IMG/VR virus record: IMGVR_UViG_3300017779_005865
Coordinates: 1 to 48,415 of that record
From: a virus
Length of the DNA: 48,415 bases
Direction: 5' to 3' (one strand)
How positions within the stretch are numbered: the stretch's first letter is position 1; every line of letters begins with the position of its first letter. Below the pieces are notes generated by a model that made no database searches, was not told the DNA's origin, and saw nothing but the letters and a program-made list of their open reading frames with translations. Position numbers and translations under genes: made by a program. Positions 36,436 to 48,415 of the stretch are shown one piece after another.

Positions 36436-36827
36436 ATTTTTTCCCATTTACCATTATTTAATAACTTAAATGTAGCAATATATTTTTGTTTCCATTGGTC
36501 TGGTTCTATAAGGCTTAAGAATATTTGTTTATCTGGTCCTGCGTAAAGATAATATGGTTTACCGACTATTGGTTGAAAACTATATTTTGCAGCATATACT
36601 AAACTTGTCCAATTATATTCATCAATAAGCTTTTTATACTCTTCCTTTAACTCATTTAATTTAGATTCAAAATAGTGATTTGCGTCGGCTACAGAACTCT
36701 TATCTACCTTTAGTGGTTCAAACTTTTGGCCATTTACAGAAGTAGGATAAGCTTTTTTATGTGCATCAAACTCACCTGTTTCATAATTATAGACTATATT
36801 GTCTGGATATTTCTTTTTTATAGACAA
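36432..36827 (-). CDS. DUF2452-like protein
   Basis: A 131-residue protein with YETGEFDAHKKAYPTSVNGQKFEPLKVDK, a helix, then YNWTSLVYAAKYSFQPIVGKPYYLY and QIFLSLIEPDQWKQKYIATFKLLNNGKW. This pattern (VYxAxxxFxPxxGxxYxLY ... FLSLIxPxxW) matches DUF2452, a family common in Bacteroidetes, which supports the host inference. The function of the family is not known to me. Overlaps the cysteine synthase by ten bases. Confidence 0.68.
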   Translation of the reverse strand: MSIKKKYPDNIVYNYETGEFDAHKKAYPTSVNGQKFEPLKVDKSSVADANHYFESKLNELKEEYKKLIDEYNWTSLVYAAKYSFQPIVGKPYYLYAGPDKQIFLSLIEPDQWKQKYIATFKLLNNGKWEKI

Positions 36828-37708
36828 CTAAAATACCTTTCACCTCTATCACAAAGTATTGTAATAGCATTTTGTTTATTATTCTTTTTTAACCATTGAT
36901 CTGCAGCCATAACATTAGCGCCAGCACTTACTCCTACAAATATACCTTTATGAGCTAAATTCCTAGCGTATTTTTTTGCATTTTCTGTTGGTATGGTTAC
37001 TATCTCGTCTATGAAATCAAGATTTACTAAAAATTTACTTCCATCTCCTATGCCTTGTATTCCGTGAAGTCCTGGTTCTCCACCACTCATTACTGGAGAT
37101 TCTGCAGGTTCAACTGCTACAATTTTAAGTTTAGGCCACATTTCTTTTAAGAATTTACCAACACCCATTATAGTTCCTCCTGTTCCTGTTCCCATTATAA
37201 GTACATCTGGCTGTTTATCTTCACCATTTTCTTCTTTATATTGATTATAAATTTCTGGACCAGTACCTATATAGTGAGCATCTATATTTAGTTGATTATG
37301 AAATTGATTACAATTAAACCAACCATTTTCTTTACAAAGTTTATCTCTTAGTTCTATTGCACCATCAAAATCTCCGTCTGAAGCTAGGTATAATTCTGCT
37401 CCGTAAAAACGGAACATTTGCTTGCGTTCAATGCTCATGTTTCTAGGCATAATAATTACCATCTTATATCCTCTTTCGGCTGCTAACATTGCAAAAGATA
37501 TTCCAGTATTACCAGAGGTTGCTTCACAAAGATAATCGCCTTTCTTAATTAAACCTCTCATTTCAGCATCATTAAGAATAAATGTTGCCATTCTATCCTT
37601 TACACTTCCGCCTGGATTCATTAGCTCGGCTTTTCCCCAAATAGTTTTATCTTCTAATTTTATTGGAATAAGAGGTGTATTTCCTACGTAGTCTGATAAT
37701 CTTTTCAT
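36818..37708 (-). CDS. Cysteine synthase (O-acetylserine sulfhydrylase-like)
   Basis: A 296-residue fold-type II PLP enzyme: GNTPLIPI at the start, the PLP Lys in NPGGSVKDRMA near residue 37, the substrate loop ATSGNTGISFAM, and the phosphate loop GTGTGGTIMGVGKF near residue 175. It replaces the acetyl group of O-acetylserine with sulfide to make cysteine. Length is normal. A phage copy could act as an auxiliary metabolic gene during infection. It overlaps the nuclease gene by four bases. Confidence 0.92.
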   Translation of the reverse strand: MKRLSDYVGNTPLIPIKLEDKTIWGKAELMNPGGSVKDRMATFILNDAEMRGLIKKGDYLCEATSGNTGISFAMLAAERGYKMVIIMPRNMSIERKQMFRFYGAELYLASDGDFDGAIELRDKLCKENGWFNCNQFHNQLNIDAHYIGTGPEIYNQYKEENGEDKQPDVLIMGTGTGGTIMGVGKFLKEMWPKLKIVAVEPAESPVMSGGEPGLHGIQGIGDGSKFLVNLDFIDEIVTIPTENAKKYARNLAHKGIFVGVSAGANVMAADQWLKKNNKQNAITILCDRGERYFSCL

Positions 37709-39149: not shown

Positions 39150-40769
39150 TTACATCATTCCAAAGCCACCGCCAGCCATTGGAGGTTCTTTGCCTTCCTC
39201 TCCAGGAAGATTTGTTATTACACATTCAGTAGTTAATAGTGTTCCAGCAACAGAAGCTGCTTTTTCAAGGGCAGTTCTAGTTACCTTACAAGGGTCAATG
39301 ATTCCAGCTTCAAACATATTTACAACTTTCTCTGTTCTAGCGTCAAAACCTTGATTTTCTCCTGCATTTTCTATTTTACTCCATATTAATTCTGGATTAA
39401 GTCCACAATTTTCCATTATTCTTTGAAAAGGTGCGCTACACGCCTTAGCTACTATGTTTGCTCCGGTTTGTTGATGCTCATTATCAAAATTAGAATTTGG
39501 CTCATAGCATGACATTAGAGCTATACCACCACCAGAAACTATTCCTTCATCTAGAGCAGCTCTTGTTGCATTAAGGGCATCTTCAACTCTATCTTTCTTT
39601 TCTTTCATTTCTATTTCAGATTGAGCTCCAATTCTTAAAATTGCAACTCCACCAGCAAGCTTTGCTAATCTTTCTTGGTTTTGTTCTTTATCATAATTAG
39701 AAGATGAATTATCAATATCGTGTTTTATTAAATTTATTCTTTCTTCAATTGCCTCAACTGTTCCAGCTCCATCTACAATAGTTGTTTTCTTATTATCAAT
39801 AGTGATTGTTGCCGCGGTGCCGAAAACTTCCGGGGTAATTTTATCAAGTCTCATACCTCTTTGATAAGATACAACCGTACCACCTGTTAAAGCTGCAATG
39901 TCTTCTAAGTATTGATTTCTCTTTTCACCAAAGCCTGGTGCTTTTACAGCTGCAACCTTTAACGTGCCTCTAATTTTATTTACAATAAGTCCAGCTAAAG
40001 CTTCACCATCTATATCTTCAGCTACTATAAGTAATGGCTTATTTTGTTGTATCGCTGCCTCTAATACCTTTACAATATCTTTAATGGATGTAATTTTTTT
40101 ATCATATAATAAAATCCAAGGATTTTCTAATTCTACCCTCATATCAGTATTATTTGTAATAAAATATGGCGATAAGTATTTACTTTCAAACTGCATACCT
40201 TCAACCATTTCTAGTCTAGTATCTCCTGTTTGGGACTCTTCAACGGTAACAACTCCTTCTCTACCAACCTTTGAAATTGCCTCTGAAATTAAATTACCAA
40301 CCTCTGTATCATTATTTGCACTAACTGTTGCGACGTTTTTAATATCGTCCTCAGAACTAATTTCTTTACTACTGTTTTTTAAAGACTTTACAATATCCTT
40401 TACAGCTTTATCTATTCCTCGCTTTAGTTCTATGGGATGAGATCCTTGTTCAATTGCTGCAAAACTTTGATCGATTATAGATGCTGCTAGTACTGTTGCA
40501 GTGGTTGTTCCATCTCCTGCCTCATCATTTGTTTGTTGAGAAACTTCCTTTACAATTTGAGCACCTGCATTTTCTAGTGCGTCTTCAAGTTCAATTGATT
40601 TTGCAACAGTAACTCCGTCTTTTGTAGAGTGGTATTCTCCATATTCTTTCTCTATTACAACATTTCTACCTCTAGGTCCAAGTGTTGTTTCTACGGCTTT
40701 AGATAATTTATCTACACCATTTTTTAGCGATTTTCTAGCGCTTGAATCAAAAGTTAACTCTTTAGCCAT
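39150..40769 (-). CDS. groL: GroEL-type chaperonin
   Basis: A 539-residue group I chaperonin of full length. ATP-site motifs are present: TLGPRGRNVVIEK, DGVTVAKSIEL, NDEAGDGTTTATVLA (catalytic Asp region) and a late GGGIALM. The end PPMAGGGFGMM is the usual Gly/Met tail. No truncation is seen. It should assemble with the GroES encoded just upstream, perhaps for folding capsid proteins. The ribosome-binding site (AGAGGAG) lies in the GroES gene, which it overlaps by eight bases. Confidence 0.95.
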   Translation of the reverse strand: MAKELTFDSSARKSLKNGVDKLSKAVETTLGPRGRNVVIEKEYGEYHSTKDGVTVAKSIELEDALENAGAQIVKEVSQQTNDEAGDGTTTATVLAASIIDQSFAAIEQGSHPIELKRGIDKAVKDIVKSLKNSSKEISSEDDIKNVATVSANNDTEVGNLISEAISKVGREGVVTVEESQTGDTRLEMVEGMQFESKYLSPYFITNNTDMRVELENPWILLYDKKITSIKDIVKVLEAAIQQNKPLLIVAEDIDGEALAGLIVNKIRGTLKVAAVKAPGFGEKRNQYLEDIAALTGGTVVSYQRGMRLDKITPEVFGTAATITIDNKKTTIVDGAGTVEAIEERINLIKHDIDNSSSNYDKEQNQERLAKLAGGVAILRIGAQSEIEMKEKKDRVEDALNATRAALDEGIVSGGGIALMSCYEPNSNFDNEHQQTGANIVAKACSAPFQRIMENCGLNPELIWSKIENAGENQGFDARTEKVVNMFEAGIIDPCKVTRTALEKAASVAGTLLTTECVITNLPGEEGKEPPMAGGGFGMM

Positions 40770-41061
40770 TATTTTCTCCTCTTTTAATTATACAAAATAA
40801 ATCTATTTCACTGATTATTAAGATGTCACCTTCTTCCATTTCTACAGTATATGCTCCTCTTTTAGGATATGCTACAATATCTCCAACCTTTACCATTGGT
40901 TCTATTAGCGTTCCAAAATTATATGCTGCAGGGCCTACTGCCTTTACAACTCCTCTACTTATACCTTCTTGTGAAATATCTGGTAAGATAACTCCTCCAG
41001 AAGTCATTTCTTCCGGATCTAATTGTTTAATAGCCACTTTTCCTCTGATTGGTTCTACCAT
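40762..41061 (-). CDS. groS: GroES-type co-chaperonin
   Basis: A 99-residue co-chaperonin: IRGKVAIKQLDPEEMTSGGVILPD, a GroEL-contacting loop with the hydrophobic GVIL, then GRVxAVGPG-like RGVVKAVGPAAYNFG, VKVGDIVAYPKRGAYTVEMEEGDILIISEIDL. I start it at 41061 because GGAGG lies seven bases before that ATG; the ATG at 41091 has none. It is closer to bacterial GroES than to T4 gp31. It is translationally coupled to GroEL. Confidence 0.93.
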   Translation of the reverse strand: MVEPIRGKVAIKQLDPEEMTSGGVILPDISQEGISRGVVKAVGPAAYNFGTLIEPMVKVGDIVAYPKRGAYTVEMEEGDILIISEIDLFCIIKRGENNG

Positions 41062-41091
41062 ATCATAACCTCCATTATTGTTTTTATTCAT

Positions 41092-41130: not shown

Positions 41131-43587
41131 TTATATTGTTGCTTTTTCTTTTATTATTTCGTTATATTCTTCTAATATATTTTTAACATTATCTATTTTA
41201 TTAAATTCTTTAAGCTGGTCTAATACCTGTTTCTTAAAAAATATTTCATAGTCTAATTCAAATATATCTTTTCTTTTTCCTATTAAATCTAGGTCTTCTT
41301 CATTGAGACATATTGCCGTTTGCCTATCTCTGGGTTTAGTATCTTCTTCACAGTTACTTTTAATATAGAATAGGTATGGGTTATCAGTATTTTTAATTGT
41401 AGTTTCTAATCTATCATTTGCCCATACTGAAGCTTTTACATGTTGTGGCATTGTTTTTACATACTCGTTAAATCTTCTAGTAAATGATTTTGATATACCT
41501 ATTTCTTTATATCCAACAGATTCTACTTTTTTTCTTAATGCTAATAAGTGTCTAATATCTAAACCATCTCTAACTGCTAATTCTGCAATTTTATTCATTG
41601 CTCCTTTCATAAATTCTGGCGTATCTTTACGAATAATATTCATACCTCTAATATACTTGTATCCAGTATCTCTTACTATTCCATAATATCTTTTCTTTGA
41701 ATTACCAAAGTATATTTTTTCCATGTCATATTCAAATTTTAAATCCATTAGCATGTATTCGTCTTGAAGTTTAGGATTATATTTTTTAACATATTCTTCC
41801 TTTAATGCTTCATTAAATACTTCTAATTGACTTTCCATTTGTTTTGCAGTATTGCCAGCTGATTTTACAAATATTGAATCCGTATCTCCGTAAAGAGTTT
41901 TGTGTCCATATTCATTAAATTTTAATACTGCAAATTTAAGAGCCTGTCTTGCAAAATATGTAATAGCATCTGCTACTTCTGGCTTGTATAATCTAAACTG
42001 ATTAAAGCCCATAGCACCATAAGCAGAGTTTAATATAATTTTATAAGCCCATTGTCTTTTTTCCATTGCTACAACATCATCACCAGTGTATTCACCAGCC
42101 TTTAATGCTCTATTTATTTCAACCCTCTTTAAGAATAGCTTTTTTAATACATAAGGTAATAATCCTAATTTATGTTCTTGCGAATAGAATAAGTATCTAC
42201 CGCCAAAAAGAGTATCATCGTGGCCAGTATCGATAAATGGAATGTTATCATTATTTAATTGGTCAATTATTTCTTCAATGTTTATACCAAGCTTTTTACA
42301 ATCTTTTTCAGATGCTATAAATGTTTCTGGACTTAAATTAAATGCCATCATAGCTGTTGGATAAAGTGAAGTATAATCCATAACGGTTACGTCATCATGT
42401 TTACCTGGTTCAGTTGGATTAAAGACTATGGCACCTGCATATTGTTGTTTTCTTCCATGTCTTCTTGTTGGGAATATTAGTTTTTGGTGAAACTCTTTTA
42501 AAATATAGTTATCAACAATCATAGATTTATAAAAAACTAAACCTAAAGAATCTAAATTTGCAATACTTTGTATTGTTGTATATAGGCCAAAAATGTTTAT
42601 TTTATCATTTATTTCCTTAAGTATTTCAACATCACGTATACCATACTTTATAAATCCTTTATAATTAGTATTCCAATCTTTCCAAGTAACGTCTGTTAAT
42701 TTGTCTAACCCTTTTTCACCAACAATTTCTTTAACTGCTGTTGCTAGTTTATAGTTTGGTAGATTGTAACCCATATCTTGTACACCTTCCATCATATCAA
42801 TATGATCTAGTCCTTTGATATTTACTTTCCAATATTCTCCACGCTTTCTAATGTAGACATCCTTTATAGGAGATAAATTTTCATATGGTAAACCTAATAC
42901 CCTGCACCTATTTACTATATATGGAAGGTCATAACCTGCAGAATACCATCCAGAAATTACGTCTACTTTTAGCATATTTAATGTATTAATAAAACCTAAT
43001 ATTGCAGTTTCTTCTTTTTTGCAAAGCATAATTACGTGAGTTCCATCATCAACTATCTTAGGTTCATCGTAATCTTTTGTATATTCAGGATGCCAAGAAA
43101 ATACAAAGTACTTTCCAACTTGAGGAACGTAGCATTGTATTGAAGTAATAGGCTGTTTTGCTTTTTCAGGCATATTATCTTTTGGATTTTCAGGATCAAA
43201 CCAAGTTTCAATATCAAAATACATAATATTTCTTTTATCAGACCATTCCAATCCTTTATCTAATATAAAATTAAACTCTGGGCTTTTATCTGACTCGTAT
43301 ATTCTTCCTGGATAATCTTTTCCTACTTGATTTCTCATTTTTATAGAGGTATAACTAACTTTATATACCTCTTCTTCGTGTAAGGATTTGTATATAGTAG
43401 TATCACTACAATCAAATTGCTTGATGTCTAATATATCTTCAATGTGTTTTGCAGAATAATAAAAATAATCTTTAAAATTATCAACCTTAGTTGTAAAATT
43501 TCCGTTTTCGTCATAGCCAAATTGGTAAATTTTATAAATTCCTTTGTCAAATTTTGACGTTATTCTTGATAGTTTGAATGTGCTCAT
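41131..43587 (-). CDS. Family B DNA polymerase (T4 gp43-like)
   Basis: An 818-residue replicative polymerase. The 3'-5' exonuclease has motif I MYFDIETW (D125, E127), motif II WYSAGYD (D220) and motif III YGIRD (D319). The polymerase has motif A TVMDYTSLYP (D404), motif B KIILNSAYG (K516, N520) and motif C YGDTDS (D568, D570). All catalytic residues are present. It is somewhat shorter than T4 gp43 (898 residues). It likely replicates the phage genome. It has the same leader as the RecB-like gene. Confidence 0.95.
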   Translation of the reverse strand: MSTFKLSRITSKFDKGIYKIYQFGYDENGNFTTKVDNFKDYFYYSAKHIEDILDIKQFDCSDTTIYKSLHEEEVYKVSYTSIKMRNQVGKDYPGRIYESDKSPEFNFILDKGLEWSDKRNIMYFDIETWFDPENPKDNMPEKAKQPITSIQCYVPQVGKYFVFSWHPEYTKDYDEPKIVDDGTHVIMLCKKEETAILGFINTLNMLKVDVISGWYSAGYDLPYIVNRCRVLGLPYENLSPIKDVYIRKRGEYWKVNIKGLDHIDMMEGVQDMGYNLPNYKLATAVKEIVGEKGLDKLTDVTWKDWNTNYKGFIKYGIRDVEILKEINDKINIFGLYTTIQSIANLDSLGLVFYKSMIVDNYILKEFHQKLIFPTRRHGRKQQYAGAIVFNPTEPGKHDDVTVMDYTSLYPTAMMAFNLSPETFIASEKDCKKLGINIEEIIDQLNNDNIPFIDTGHDDTLFGGRYLFYSQEHKLGLLPYVLKKLFLKRVEINRALKAGEYTGDDVVAMEKRQWAYKIILNSAYGAMGFNQFRLYKPEVADAITYFARQALKFAVLKFNEYGHKTLYGDTDSIFVKSAGNTAKQMESQLEVFNEALKEEYVKKYNPKLQDEYMLMDLKFEYDMEKIYFGNSKKRYYGIVRDTGYKYIRGMNIIRKDTPEFMKGAMNKIAELAVRDGLDIRHLLALRKKVESVGYKEIGISKSFTRRFNEYVKTMPQHVKASVWANDRLETTIKNTDNPYLFYIKSNCEEDTKPRDRQTAICLNEEDLDLIGKRKDIFELDYEIFFKKQVLDQLKEFNKIDNVKNILEEYNEIIKEKATI

Positions 43588-43654: not shown

Positions 43655-45118
43655 TTAACAATTTAGATCGTAGTATTGTCCAGTTTTAATTAGCATGTTT
43701 GCTTTAACCATTTCTTGCATTATTGCCCAGCTCTCTTTCCAATTGCTGTCAAGTCTTAATCCGTGGCCACCTTCAGATATAATAACCTTTAACACTTGAT
43801 CGTGTCTTATAGAAGTATTACCTAATGAAGACATTATTCTTTTTATTAAATCTATATTTGGTTGGTTTAAGGTTATTTTTTTAGTTTTAGCAGTTTTTAT
43901 TTTTGAAACAATTATAGAAGATGGTTCTTCTTTAATCATTTTAACTTTACAAGTTTCTCCTACTAATACCTCTTCCATTTCTGTTTTTTCAAATAGTAGT
44001 TGAGGTTTTGCTTTTGGAGCAACTCTAGCAACTTTCCTCTTTTTTATTAAGTGAGGATTATTTTTAAGCCTGCAGTAAACAGAGTACTGGCAAAGACTTA
44101 CTTCAGTACCGTATGATTTTAATTCATTTTGCTCATCTTCAAATATTTTAATACCATTTTCTGTTGTATAGTTCCACAATTCTTTATGAAACTGTATATC
44201 TAAAATTTCTTTTTGGTTTTCTCGTATCCAAACAACTCTTTCGCCTAAAGGTACTTCTTTTTTAGATAAACCTGGAAACATTAATTCTAGAGTTTCACAT
44301 GCTCCTGGACCTGGAGCTACGAACTTTGAATCATGGCTAAAGTTTAATTTTGGATTAACAGAGTTTGATGTTGAGCAATGGTAACCGTAATAGTCTCCAA
44401 TCATATTTTCGCCTGTTAAGTATAAAAATCCTTCATAAAGGTCTTTTGCTTCTCTCATGCCTGTCATAACTGTTTTTTTAGGATTATGTCCAGAAGGTCT
44501 ATGTGTCCAAGATGCTATCCATTCTGAAACATTTGACCATGTTCCTTTGTCGTCGTGTCTAGCATTTCCTAGATACCATTCATTAACAAATCTTCTACCG
44601 GCAGTTTGTATGCTTGTATGAAGTTCAGTTGTACCCCATATTTTTTGTTTATTTTCTTTAGCTGCAACTGCAATTTTTCTAAGTTTTTTAGTGTATTCTC
44701 CTACCTCACCAGTTTCTTTAAACTGTTGTTGCTCTTTTCCTAGTAGAATAAAATCAATATGGGCTTTTTTATCATCATCAATGCCAGTTAAAACATTATG
44801 AACGCCTCTTGCTCCATAAAAGTGAGATATAATAGTGTTACCAATAACGTTTTGCCATTTTAGTCCTGGCACAGTAACAATATTTTCCATAATGTACACC
44901 ATTCTATCATCTGCAGTTATTGAAGGGTGAAAATATTCTACTTCTAATCCCAAAGCTGGGTCTGTTGGAGTGTATGACTCTAATATTCCTTTTTGAAATA
45001 GTGTTCGTTTATTAACCATCTTAACAAAATGCTCATAATCTTTTAGTACATCCCAATCAATAGAATTTCTGAGTGATTGGTCTTTTGTGCTTCCAGCTGG
45101 TATTAAAATATTAGGCAT
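43655..45118 (-). CDS. Possible thymine-hypermodification protein (HhH glycosylase-like)
   Basis: A 487-residue protein. The first 300 residues resemble the alpha-glutamyl/putrescinyl thymine pyrophosphorylase or 5-hmdU kinase group in phages: FHPSITADDRMVYIMENI, WQNVIGNTIISHFYGARG, GFLYLTGENMIGDYYGYHCSTSNS, then FVAPGPGACETLELMFPG (pattern G-x-G-P-G-A). The C-terminal 130 residues are Lys-rich, with a winged-helix-like end. If correct, the phage DNA carries modified thymine. The neighbouring HAD gene overlaps its start by eight bases. The call rests on motif layout only. Confidence 0.45.
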   Translation of the reverse strand: MPNILIPAGSTKDQSLRNSIDWDVLKDYEHFVKMVNKRTLFQKGILESYTPTDPALGLEVEYFHPSITADDRMVYIMENIVTVPGLKWQNVIGNTIISHFYGARGVHNVLTGIDDDKKAHIDFILLGKEQQQFKETGEVGEYTKKLRKIAVAAKENKQKIWGTTELHTSIQTAGRRFVNEWYLGNARHDDKGTWSNVSEWIASWTHRPSGHNPKKTVMTGMREAKDLYEGFLYLTGENMIGDYYGYHCSTSNSVNPKLNFSHDSKFVAPGPGACETLELMFPGLSKKEVPLGERVVWIRENQKEILDIQFHKELWNYTTENGIKIFEDEQNELKSYGTEVSLCQYSVYCRLKNNPHLIKKRKVARVAPKAKPQLLFEKTEMEEVLVGETCKVKMIKEEPSSIIVSKIKTAKTKKITLNQPNIDLIKRIMSSLGNTSIRHDQVLKVIISEGGHGLRLDSNWKESWAIMQEMVKANMLIKTGQYYDLNC

Positions 45119-45506
45119 GCAAATCCTCTAAGTGTCTTACATTTTCTTTTTCAGTAAAATCGTGTGAAACGTGTATTACTTTACCGTTCCAGCTTTTTTC
45201 TATTTCTGCTTTTTGTACCTCATCGTCTTCAAAGAAAAATTGAACATCTATAGTTTTTACTTCTTTTAACCACTGTAAAGTTCTAGCTTTATGGGTACCA
45301 GAAGATTCTCTAGATTTTACCTTAAACGGTAAAGGATTAAAATAAACTTCATTTTTTATACCATGTTTGTGTAAGAAAGCTTTTGTTTCTGGCTCTTCTT
45401 CATGGCTTCTGCCAGTTATTATTACATCGTTTGGGCCTGGTCTTACGCCGCATATTCCATTTCCTAAATGGATTACTCCATCAATATCAAATCCGTTTAC
45501 TTTCAT
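45111..45506 (-). CDS. Small HAD-superfamily hydrolase
   Basis: A 131-residue HAD protein: NGFDIDGVIHLG (D7, D9), VIITGRS near residue 30, a Lys-containing turn (GTHKARTLQWL) and FFFEDDEVQ near residue 92. It is minimal and has no cap. It is coupled to the possible thymine-modification gene by an eight-base overlap, which suggests that it acts on the same nucleotide pathway; it could also be a general phosphatase. Confidence 0.8.
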   Translation of the reverse strand: MKVNGFDIDGVIHLGNGICGVRPGPNDVIITGRSHEEEPETKAFLHKHGIKNEVYFNPLPFKVKSRESSGTHKARTLQWLKEVKTIDVQFFFEDDEVQKAEIEKSWNGKVIHVSHDFTEKENVRHLEDLHA

Positions 45507-45508
45507 AA

Positions 45509-46696
45509 TTATTTATTCATTTGTTTTGAAGTAGATTCAGTTAACCTTCTGTTTGCTAGTTCAGTACATTCATAAACAGCGTCTGAAAACATCATTTGAT
45601 CTGGTGGAGTTTTTTGAGTAAAAGCAGATGGACCTCTTAGTGCTCCTACTACTCCTAATTCTCTTGCAACTTTTAAGTATCTTATTGCATCTATTACTAC
45701 TCCTGCAGAATTTGGACTGTCTTGAACACTTAATTGGGCATCAAACAATACTGGAGAACCGCCAAAACCTTCAAGCTCTAATCTAAAGTTTGCAACTTTA
45801 TTATCTCCGTAAAAATGAATATATTCAGAAGGTCCTGCATGGAGGAATGAATCTTCAGTAGAAATACCTCTAATTTCATTTTGAGCTCTAATAACATTTT
45901 CTTTAGAAATCTTTTTTGAAGCTAATCTGGTTTTGTCTTCCATATTTAAAAAGTCAGTATTACCACCAACATTTCTTTGGATGTGTGCTTTTACATGGTG
46001 ACCTCTTTCAAATGCTAATTCTTGTAGCATCTGAGATAAAATACTTGCCCCAAATTGAGAACGCATATCGTCTCCAATTAATGGTATACCAGCATCAATA
46101 AATCTTTGTTCCCAAGCTGGGTCAGATGCAATAAATACTGGGATACAATTTACAAAAGAAATTCCAGTTTCTAAACAAATTTCAGCCCAAAATTCTGTAG
46201 TTTTTTGTGAACCAACGGGTAAATAGTTAACAAGTACTTCTACTTTTTTTGATTTTAATTCTTTAATTATGGTATCTTTCCATTTTCTTTCTAATTTATT
46301 GGTCCAAGATACTCTATTCATATCTGTAGAATTTCTTAGCTTTTCAGAAACTAAGAATCTATTTTCTTCAGGATAATTATCCATTAAACCAGCATAACCA
46401 TCGATAACAGGTGCTTCAAATACTGGTGCTTTAGATTCAATATTATCTACAATATTCCATGCACAGTTTGGTCGTTGTTGTAATGCTTCACCTAATGGTA
46501 AACCAGTTTTACGTTCGTCAATATCAAACCCTACTACAAATTCAACATCTCCTGCTAAATAACCTCCAATATCTGTTTTCATTACTCCTGTTTCTGCTTT
46601 AATATTTTCAGCATAATATTGTACGCCTTCTACAAGCGACTTTGCACAGTTTCCTGTTCCTATGATTCCTACTTTAATTTTACTATTTTTTGCCAT
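45509..46696 (-). CDS. Myo-inositol-1-phosphate synthase
   Basis: A 395-residue enzyme of the short prokaryotic type, which turns glucose-6-phosphate into inositol phosphate. It has VGIIGTGNCAKSLVEGVQYY (NAD site), EFVVGFDIDERKTG, VLVNYLPVGSQKTTEFWAE, NCIPVFIASDPAWEQRF, GDDMRSQFGASILSQML (catalytic-domain Lys/Asp region) and NVGGNTDFLNM. The family is unusual in phages. Bacteroidetes make inositol lipids, so a host-linked lipid or capsule role is possible. A class I promoter-like gap precedes it. Confidence 0.92.
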   Translation of the reverse strand: MAKNSKIKVGIIGTGNCAKSLVEGVQYYAENIKAETGVMKTDIGGYLAGDVEFVVGFDIDERKTGLPLGEALQQRPNCAWNIVDNIESKAPVFEAPVIDGYAGLMDNYPEENRFLVSEKLRNSTDMNRVSWTNKLERKWKDTIIKELKSKKVEVLVNYLPVGSQKTTEFWAEICLETGISFVNCIPVFIASDPAWEQRFIDAGIPLIGDDMRSQFGASILSQMLQELAFERGHHVKAHIQRNVGGNTDFLNMEDKTRLASKKISKENVIRAQNEIRGISTEDSFLHAGPSEYIHFYGDNKVANFRLELEGFGGSPVLFDAQLSVQDSPNSAGVVIDAIRYLKVARELGVVGALRGPSAFTQKTPPDQMMFSDAVYECTELANRRLTESTSKQMNK

Positions 46697-46793: not shown

Positions 46794-47864
46794 TTAGAAC
46801 GAAAAAACTACACTTTTGTGGTATTTATTTTCGCAATTATTTTCCATATCCCATCTATAATATTCTCTGCTTAAGTGAACACTTTTAGGTTTTTCCATTG
46901 CGTCAAACGATAATTGTTTTTTATCATTTAATATATTAGACGGCCATGATTTAGCTGTCCAACCATATAGTTCACAAACAGTATCTATAGTTTTATTAAA
47001 TGTTTTTACAACTTCTGATCTTTGTTCCCATGTTCCGTAAAATGGAGTATCTTTATAATATCCTGTTTTAGGTAATTTTCTACTTTCATCTTCAATTGGT
47101 AGAGCATGCACTAATTCTACATTTTTTATATTTAAACAATTTATTTGATCTGCCAAATATAATACCATAACCTCAGTAGCTTTAGAATAGTCTTCTCTTC
47201 TACATAAGTGGTGTCTAATATCTATATTACCTGCGTAAAATGTTAAATGGGTTAAGTCTTCAGTATTTATTCCAGATTTTTCTAGTATTTTATCCTTTAA
47301 ACCGTCTCTTAATACAGAATAAAGGGTTAATCCGTCGTTACGACTAGTCATATATCCTGGTTGATACATTGAAAAAGAGTGGCTATCACCAAAACATAAT
47401 TTTGTGGTTTTTTCTACTATATCAAATTTTTCTGTTTTGTTAACTGCTTTTTGTAATTCTTCTAAATCTATTATATGGGCTAAAGGAGATGTTGAACTAT
47501 TTTTAAGTCTTTTTGAAACCATATCTACCAAATCTGGCATTTCATGTTGTAAGGATAATAGTTTTCCTGGAAAGCTTTCTAGTTGAATAAGTTTTTTACA
47601 AAAGTCATCGCCTAGGCCTCCAAAAAGATTAAGTGTTCCTTCATAACTTATACCCATATAGAGTATAATTACGTCGTAACTATTTAGTTTTTCTGATTTA
47701 TCTAAAATTGTTACGTCAGTATATCCTGCATTTATACATTGGTTCATTACCTTGTGAGCCCATGCCCCGTTATGGTTTGATATTCTTTTTGATATTGCAC
47801 CGGAAAGTCCGTCAATACCTATTTTAATACCTTTATCTTTAATTTTATCTACTAATGTTATCAT
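46794..47864 (-). CDS. SGNH/GDSL-like protein
   Basis: A 356-residue protein. Near residue 158 it has LCFGDSHSFSMYQPG, a GDSH-S nucleophile block, followed by FYAGNIDIRHHLCRR (Gly/Asn block) and a late SVHLSREYY that could hold the catalytic His. The first 120 residues are a Rossmann-like domain (DVTILDKSEKLNSYDVIILYMGIS). It may be an esterase or acyltransferase acting on a glycan or lipid. No membrane segment. I recall relatives in marine phages, function unknown. Confidence 0.6.
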   Translation of the reverse strand: MITLVDKIKDKGIKIGIDGLSGAISKRISNHNGAWAHKVMNQCINAGYTDVTILDKSEKLNSYDVIILYMGISYEGTLNLFGGLGDDFCKKLIQLESFPGKLLSLQHEMPDLVDMVSKRLKNSSTSPLAHIIDLEELQKAVNKTEKFDIVEKTTKLCFGDSHSFSMYQPGYMTSRNDGLTLYSVLRDGLKDKILEKSGINTEDLTHLTFYAGNIDIRHHLCRREDYSKATEVMVLYLADQINCLNIKNVELVHALPIEDESRKLPKTGYYKDTPFYGTWEQRSEVVKTFNKTIDTVCELYGWTAKSWPSNILNDKKQLSFDAMEKPKSVHLSREYYRWDMENNCENKYHKSVVFSF

Positions 47865-48308: not shown

Positions 48309-48415
48309 TTCTTTTTCTCCTTAATATAGTTATCTAAACCGCCTAAATAAGCTACGCAGTCTAATAAATTGTCTTCTCTATAGTTATAAGAATGCCTAGA
48401 TAGTTTTAGAGCTAC
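48305..48415 (-). CDS. C-terminal fragment of a small helical protein
   Basis: Only the last 36 residues lie in the window: VALKLSRHSYNYREDNLLDCVAYLGGLDNYIKEKKK and a TGA at 48305-48307. The pattern (K-L-x-R ... D-x-x-x-D-x-x-x-Y) recalls short phage DUF6378/MazG-like proteins, but too little is present for a firm call. The N-terminus is beyond the window edge. AGGAG for the dUTPase lies in its last codons. Confidence 0.55.
   Translation of the reverse strand, partial: VALKLSRHSYNYREDNLLDCVAYLGGLDNYIKEKKK

Follow-up and report, generated by a model that had tools for sequence, protein, structure and literature searches.

What do five closely spaced genes at the end of a viral contig do to the DNA that carries them? 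The DNA is IMG/VR virus record IMGVR_UViG_3300017779_005865, analysed over its positions 1 to 48,415, and this whole stretch is called the window below. A preliminary description proposed that two of these genes form a thymine hypermodification module, in which a protein with the layout of 5-hydroxymethyldeoxyuridine (5-hmdU) kinases is coupled to a HAD phosphatase and lies near a dUTPase and a DNA polymerase. We instead read the window, at a probability of roughly 0.62, as holding most of a cytosine-hypermodification operon: 5-hydroxymethylcytosine (hmC) would be made, a myo-inositol-1-phosphate synthase (MIPS) and the HAD phosphatase would make inositol, and two further proteins, here called X and HEL, would couple inositol to the base. 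The genes concerned, in window coordinates, are as follows.

48309-48415, minus strand: 3' end of a DUF6378 gene; the translated tail matches DUF6378 of contig L001
47868-48308, minus strand: dUTPase-family protein (PF00692, 2.6e-17); the operon's first complete gene in the window
46794-47864, minus strand: X, 356 amino acids; alpha/beta N-terminal part and, from about residue 150, an SGNH/GDSL fold; HEL partner
45509-46696, minus strand: MIPS/INO1, 395 amino acids (PF01658, 1gr0, TIGR03450)
45111-45506, minus strand: HAD-type phosphatase, 131 amino acids, with HAD motifs; proposed inositol-1-phosphate phosphatase
43655-45118, minus strand: HEL, 487 amino acids, PF18723 HMUDK_hel family, C-terminal winged-helix domain at about 415-487; proposed base-flipping transferase or partner of one
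41131-43587, minus strand: DNA polymerase family B (PF00136, 8.4e-45)

Linkage of the cassette and the probable modified base

The spacing from dUTPase to HEL is that of an operon: 3 bases separate dUTPase and X, 97 separate X and MIPS, and 2 separate MIPS and HAD, while HAD and HEL overlap by 8 bases. Both reading frames named in the preliminary description, HEL and HAD, are present, their coupling is borne out by the overlap, and the set of HAD motifs is complete. The DNA polymerase and the dUTPase reported nearby are likewise confirmed, the polymerase being the next gene downstream of HEL after a gap of 67 bases. However, the dUTPase is not an immediate neighbour, as MIPS and X lie between, and these two key parts of the module were missing from the earlier gene list.

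To describe the spread of the cassette, IMG/VR was scanned with HEL, X and MIPS, which returned well over a hundred loci. The linkage counts come from the best 80 loci per scan and describe the closer relatives; sequences were clustered at 90% identity, and MIPS was counted as a neighbour of HEL within 8 kb. MIPS and X are each found in 42 of 43 HEL clusters and HAD in 40, and an FkbM-type methyltransferase accompanies 26 of them; HEL in turn is present at 26 of the 30 phage MIPS clusters. The set X-MIPS-HAD-HEL is thus nearly invariant in IMG/VR, and the only HEL cluster without MIPS is the Aeromonas phage 44RR group. FkbM enzymes typically O-methylate sugars, and their presence in relatives would fit O-methylation of inositol.

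The window contains no gene of the thymidylate synthase (TS) family and ends inside the DUF6378 gene, 107 bases past the dUTPase. Contig L001, which is near-identical to the window and identical over HEL, runs on through DUF6378 into a gene for a 282-residue TS-family enzyme (L001:5682-6530), the corresponding position being just past the window end. This linked enzyme is encoded in 7/7 close relatives tested. Its best solved matches are the MilA CMP hydroxymethylase and the T4 dCMP hydroxymethylase, not thymidylate synthases. In L001 and its relatives, the catalytic Cys is present and Asp stands at the position of E. coli ThyA Asn177, where Asp marks cytosine-specific hydroxymethylases (T4 gp42, MilA). 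Among 16 longer cassette contigs, this D-type enzyme is found in all 9 of at least 139 kb, and the 7 without it are all 116 kb or shorter. With reference sequences counted, 57 of 69 aligned TS-family sequences are D-type; the 9 of N-type comprise E. coli ThyA together with separate thymidylate synthases. Some genes labelled as hydroxymethylases in the neighbourhood counts were ordinary thymidylate synthases, which the Asp/Asn test told apart. Because the linked hydroxymethylase is D-type in the relatives and in all long contigs, the base is most likely 5-hydroxymethylcytosine, and we assign a very high probability to cytosine rather than thymine as the modified base.

Collectively, these results do not support the modified thymine of the preliminary description, since the linked TS-family enzyme is cytosine-type and the cassette has no P-loop kinase; the suggested search for a hydroxymethyl-dU synthase led, beyond the window end, to an enzyme of the hydroxymethylcytosine type. 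The broader claim of a DNA-base hypermodification module holds up well, given a profile match, a near-invariant operon, the hydroxymethylase linkage and a phage amino acid:DNA transferase (ADDT) as best structural neighbour. With high probability, the cassette hypermodifies a DNA base.

The four proteins of the cassette

For HEL, the profile search proposed earlier gave a match: PF18723 aligns with residues 214-353 at 37.9 bits (Pfam cut-off 25; E 1.7e-9). HEL relatives score 35-48 bits, with one at 23.3, and their alignments cover at most positions 53-273 of the 281 in the profile. The 5-hmdU kinase layout therefore stands for the helical part and fails for the kinase part, as HEL lacks a P-loop. 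None was detected in X, HAD, MIPS or the hydroxymethylase either, with M6 gp54 (GCNGSGKT) as positive control. Apparent P-loops (GxxxxGKS) in 9 of 74 HEL sequences were rejected as chance matches, being located in a variable stretch and missing from the window HEL. In the AlphaFold2 model of HEL (pLDDT 82), the last ~70 residues fold as a winged helix, and VIA-align gives winged-helix matches at residues 412-487. The top VIA-align row for the model is 8z2n (223 residues, 3.9 Å), the 5-PmdU glycinyltransferase of phage PaMx11 and a member of the same family as M6 gp51, at a Z of 10.0 that is below the caution level for helical proteins. Foldseek returned no match for the model at E<=0.001, and a PDB sequence search with the HEL profile gave nothing meaningful. 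PF18724 (ADDT) does not match the window HEL at E<=1 and does not match 44RR. No profile link above noise connects HEL with the M6 gp51 ADDT or with HEL2, another partner of X described below. A weak but detectable profile alignment with M6 gp55 includes shared GPGA and E...C motifs. We read HEL, with the model in mind, as a putative DNA-bound base-flipping transferase or transferase partner.

X has no match in Pfam, and a PDB sequence search with an X profile, built from GDSH-bearing sequences only, gave nothing meaningful. Its AlphaFold2 model (pLDDT 92) adopts the SGNH/GDSL fold, with Z 13.0 for 2hsj, 12.7 for sialate O-acetylesterases and 11.2 for the O-acetyltransferase PatB. Across 57 sequences, neither the GDSH motif at 159-162 (including Ser161) nor Asn213 varies, and 98% keep His330. 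Position 327, three before His330, is Lys or variable rather than the usual SGNH Asp; without this Asp, hydrolase chemistry is not assured. X seems to be the common element across the cassette classes described below, which fits an activating role on hydroxymethylcytosine. As a separate observation, a C-5 cytosine methylase-like gene directly follows X in two contigs, at L121 4421-5668 (PF00145, 2.7e-17) and, by sequence likeness only, at L173 10553-11770.

MIPS matches PF01658 at 1.5e-22, and its nearest solved relative is M. tuberculosis INO1 (PDB 1gr0, 2.2e-79). The INO1 family match spans both domains and is much closer than that to a cyclitol synthase (270 vs 154 bits). The window MIPS would be expected to make inositol-1-phosphate from glucose-6-phosphate. 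The HAD motifs FDIDGV, IITGRS, K and EDD are invariant in the alignment of relatives and kept as far as Stenotrophomonas phage Mendera. The window HAD also weakly matches phrog_415 (1.3e-8), a polynucleotide-kinase phosphatase family, and a PDB sequence search with its profile gave nothing meaningful. Among 50,697 annotated phage records, the 18 that carry MIPS are also the 18 that carry this HAD; the two adjoin base-modification genes there, and this shared distribution suggests that HAD is an inositol phosphate phosphatase.

Related gene sets in other phages

The 18 records belong to Stenotrophomonas Menderavirus-type phages and Caulobacter phage Cr30, and all are without HEL. In Cr30, MIPS-HAD adjoins an ADDT and a TAGT-like gene; in Mendera, it lies directly beside QueC, a TGT-like gene and QueE (L026 11998-16627), and this Mendera arrangement hints at an inositol-linked deazaguanine modification. 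From these two contexts, inositol seems to supply DNA modifications of more than one chemical kind.

X is also found with other partners. Among 74 X clusters, 49 carry HEL and 18 carry HEL2, a protein of 300-400 amino acids, and none carries both. Neither Pfam nor PHROG gives a match for HEL2, and it shows no profile link to ADDT. At most HEL2 loci, the neighbouring gene encodes a PALP enzyme whose family, phrog_7093, bears the 'threonine dehydratase' label also given to M6 gp52. These X-HEL2-PALP loci (L088, L092, L065 and relatives) lack MIPS, many have a hydroxymethylase nearby, and the arrangement looks like the cytosine platform adapted to amino acids. M6 is a known thymidine hypermodifier; its PF18723 protein, gp55, lies beside a separate P-loop kinase, gp54, and it encodes the ADDT gp51 and the PALP-type gp52. 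In Tulanevirus, X occurs with UDP-galactopyranose mutase and a 358-residue protein. The same three genes, with HEL missing, are found in the hmC phages Aeromonas phage 25 (L028 5755-9026) and IME13 (L276), and galactofuranose decoration is possible at such loci. Neither HEL nor HEL2 was found in phage 25, PTm1, Cr30 or Mendera, the HEL2 search having no positive control.

The 44RR group supports the cytosine pathway independently. In 44RR, X and HEL are fused as one protein, ORF233c, and directly upstream, in place of MIPS and HAD, lies an SSF symporter gene related to the Na+ symporters vSGLT/SGLT, which is also kept upstream of X-HEL in UP87. No MIPS was found in the annotated records of 44RR-group phages. 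44RR encodes a dCMP hydroxymethylase and no glucosyltransferases. Phages 44RR, 31 and 25 were described as encoding dCMP hydroxymethylase, denB and alc and as being among the phages that lack glucosyltransferase genes, any other modification in them being treated as unknown in 2010 (Petrov et al. 2010, PMC2993671). The symporter may import inositol and so replace MIPS and HAD; if it does, free inositol is what X-HEL use.

The remainder of the window carries genes of other kinds. GroES and GroEL (39150-41091) lie directly downstream of DNA polymerase B, and a cysteine synthase-like PALP-fold gene occupies 36818-37708 (PF00291, 1.2e-66). Positions 6722-35788 hold a long minus-strand island of glycan-type genes, among them two NeuB-family genes, a cytidylyltransferase, a class IV aminotransferase, an FkbM methyltransferase, several glycosyltransferases, and UDP-glucose dehydrogenase-like and epimerase-like genes. 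The dUTPase-family protein may have a nucleotide-pool role. A near-identity search of the window region against phage records gave no match.

Proposed pathway, rival explanations and known systems

In the proposed pathway, the phage dCMP hydroxymethylase, assigned from its sequence, would make 5-hydroxymethyl-dCMP, which is then polymerised into phage DNA. MIPS would convert host glucose-6-phosphate to inositol-1-phosphate, and HAD would dephosphorylate it to free inositol, whose ring might, going by enzyme family, be O-methylated by the FkbM methyltransferase as an optional step in many relatives. X and HEL would link one of the hydroxyls of inositol to the 5-methylene carbon of hydroxymethylcytosine in DNA. 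HEL would bind the DNA and flip the base, and X would stand in for the P-loop kinase, for example through acylation or some other activation of the hydroxymethyl group, a chemistry that is uncertain. The expected product, 5-(inositolyl-oxymethyl)cytosine, may shield the genome from nucleases. Inositol is probably the added group; the roles given to X and HEL are tentative, with the odds rather against them.

Several observations weigh against this inositol pathway. TIGR03450 matches MIPS at 3.2e-88, below the NCBIfam equivalog cut-off, and its superfamily also includes a synthase of five-membered cyclitols. The nearest relative of the 44RR symporter is the sugar transporter vSGLT, and inositol as the symporter's substrate is correspondingly less secure. 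SGNH enzymes are mostly hydrolases. Without HEL, X adjoins UDP-galactopyranose mutase in Tulanevirus and ribonucleotide reductase genes in Tenacibaculum phage PTm1, and its role is therefore not inositol-specific. Finally, the structural match between HEL and 8z2n, at Z 10 for a helical protein, is middling and at most suggestive.

On the same base, the added group might instead be an inositol phosphate joined by a phosphodiester, another cyclitol or a processed derivative, with HAD perhaps acting on the phosphorylated base rather than on inositol phosphate. The resemblance of HAD to the phosphatase part of polynucleotide kinases fits such a product, as do the FkbM methyltransferases of many relatives, which show further processing, and a MIPS call that is superfamily-level only with respect to a cyclitol synthase paralogue. 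However, HAD follows MIPS and not HEL or X (18/18 annotated records without HEL), it is missing where the symporter replaces MIPS, and MIPS scores far better against INO1 than against the cyclitol synthase; we consider a product of this kind unlikely.

Departures from the hypermodified cytosine itself fare worse. Were HEL a 5-hmdU kinase subunit and HAD an enzyme trimming an intermediate, thymine would be hypermodified as in M6, SP10 and PhiW-14, which would account for the PF18723 match, the alignment and motifs shared with M6 gp55, and the nearby dUTPase. Yet M6 has a P-loop kinase beside its PF18723 gene whereas the cassette has none, the hydroxymethylase is cytosine-type in all long contigs, and PF18724 matches neither the window HEL nor 44RR, which leaves thymine highly improbable. 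Phages do carry metabolic genes, and MIPS and HAD might serve osmolyte or inositol lipid synthesis or host takeover while travelling with a separate X-HEL pair, possibly a base-excision weapon against host DNA; the HEL fold is weakly like DNA glycosylase-like proteins (MutYX, queuine salvage glycosylase). Against such independence stand the presence of MIPS in 42/43 HEL clusters, the location of MIPS-HAD beside genes for other base modifications in two phage groups that are not related, and the retention of X-HEL with a transporter in the 44RR group, and we regard it as quite improbable.

If correct, the inositol pathway would explain why so many environmental phages encode an inositol synthase, would answer what 44RR, 31 and their relatives do to their hydroxymethylcytosine, and would be a kinase-free cytosine counterpart of the known thymidine hypermodification pathways. 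A wider picture, to which we give slightly less than even odds, is a large phage group with myo-inositol or O-methyl-inositol ethers on its cytosines, built on a kinase-free platform of X with HEL or HEL2 whose added groups are swapped among inositol, amino-acid-derived groups and possibly galactofuranose. The predicted nucleoside, C16H25N3O10 (calculated 419.154 Da), has the same formula as glucosyl-hmC, and a simple mass measurement could therefore mistake the inositol adduct for glucosylation. To our knowledge, no DNA base has been described as decorated with inositol; searches of the open-licence PMC literature turned up no such case in phage DNA, and a prior mention may exist elsewhere.

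Compared with known systems, the proposed pathway resembles the glucosyl-hmC of T4 and the arabinosyl-hmC of RB69 in that hmC, produced by a dCMP hydroxymethylase, subsequently receives a further group, presumably as a counter to restriction; in contrast, the window cassette has no DNA glucosyltransferase, would attach a cyclitol where those systems draw on a nucleotide sugar, and has X-HEL in the place of a sugar transferase. With the thymidine pathways of M6, ViI, SP10 and PhiW-14 (5-hmdU kinase, ADDT/PUGT, PALP enzyme), it shares a PF18723-type helical protein and a hydroxymethylpyrimidine start. Additionally, the closest structural match to HEL, a suggestive one, is a transferase of DNA-glycosylase-like fold, and the X-HEL2 class has the same kind of PALP enzyme. 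It differs from them in its cytosine-type hydroxymethylase, in an SGNH-fold protein instead of the P-loop kinase, and in inositol-making genes instead of amino-acid chemistry, ADDT not being detected. Cr30 and Menderavirus carry homologous MIPS and HAD beside DNA base modification genes, but their partners are different (ADDT and TAGT-like; QueC/TGT-like/QueE), and HEL was not detected there. Finally, Biquartavirus 44RR2.8t and 31 share with the window system the X-HEL homologue, as the single protein ORF233c, and a dCMP hydroxymethylase, and have an SGLT-type symporter instead of the window's MIPS and HAD.
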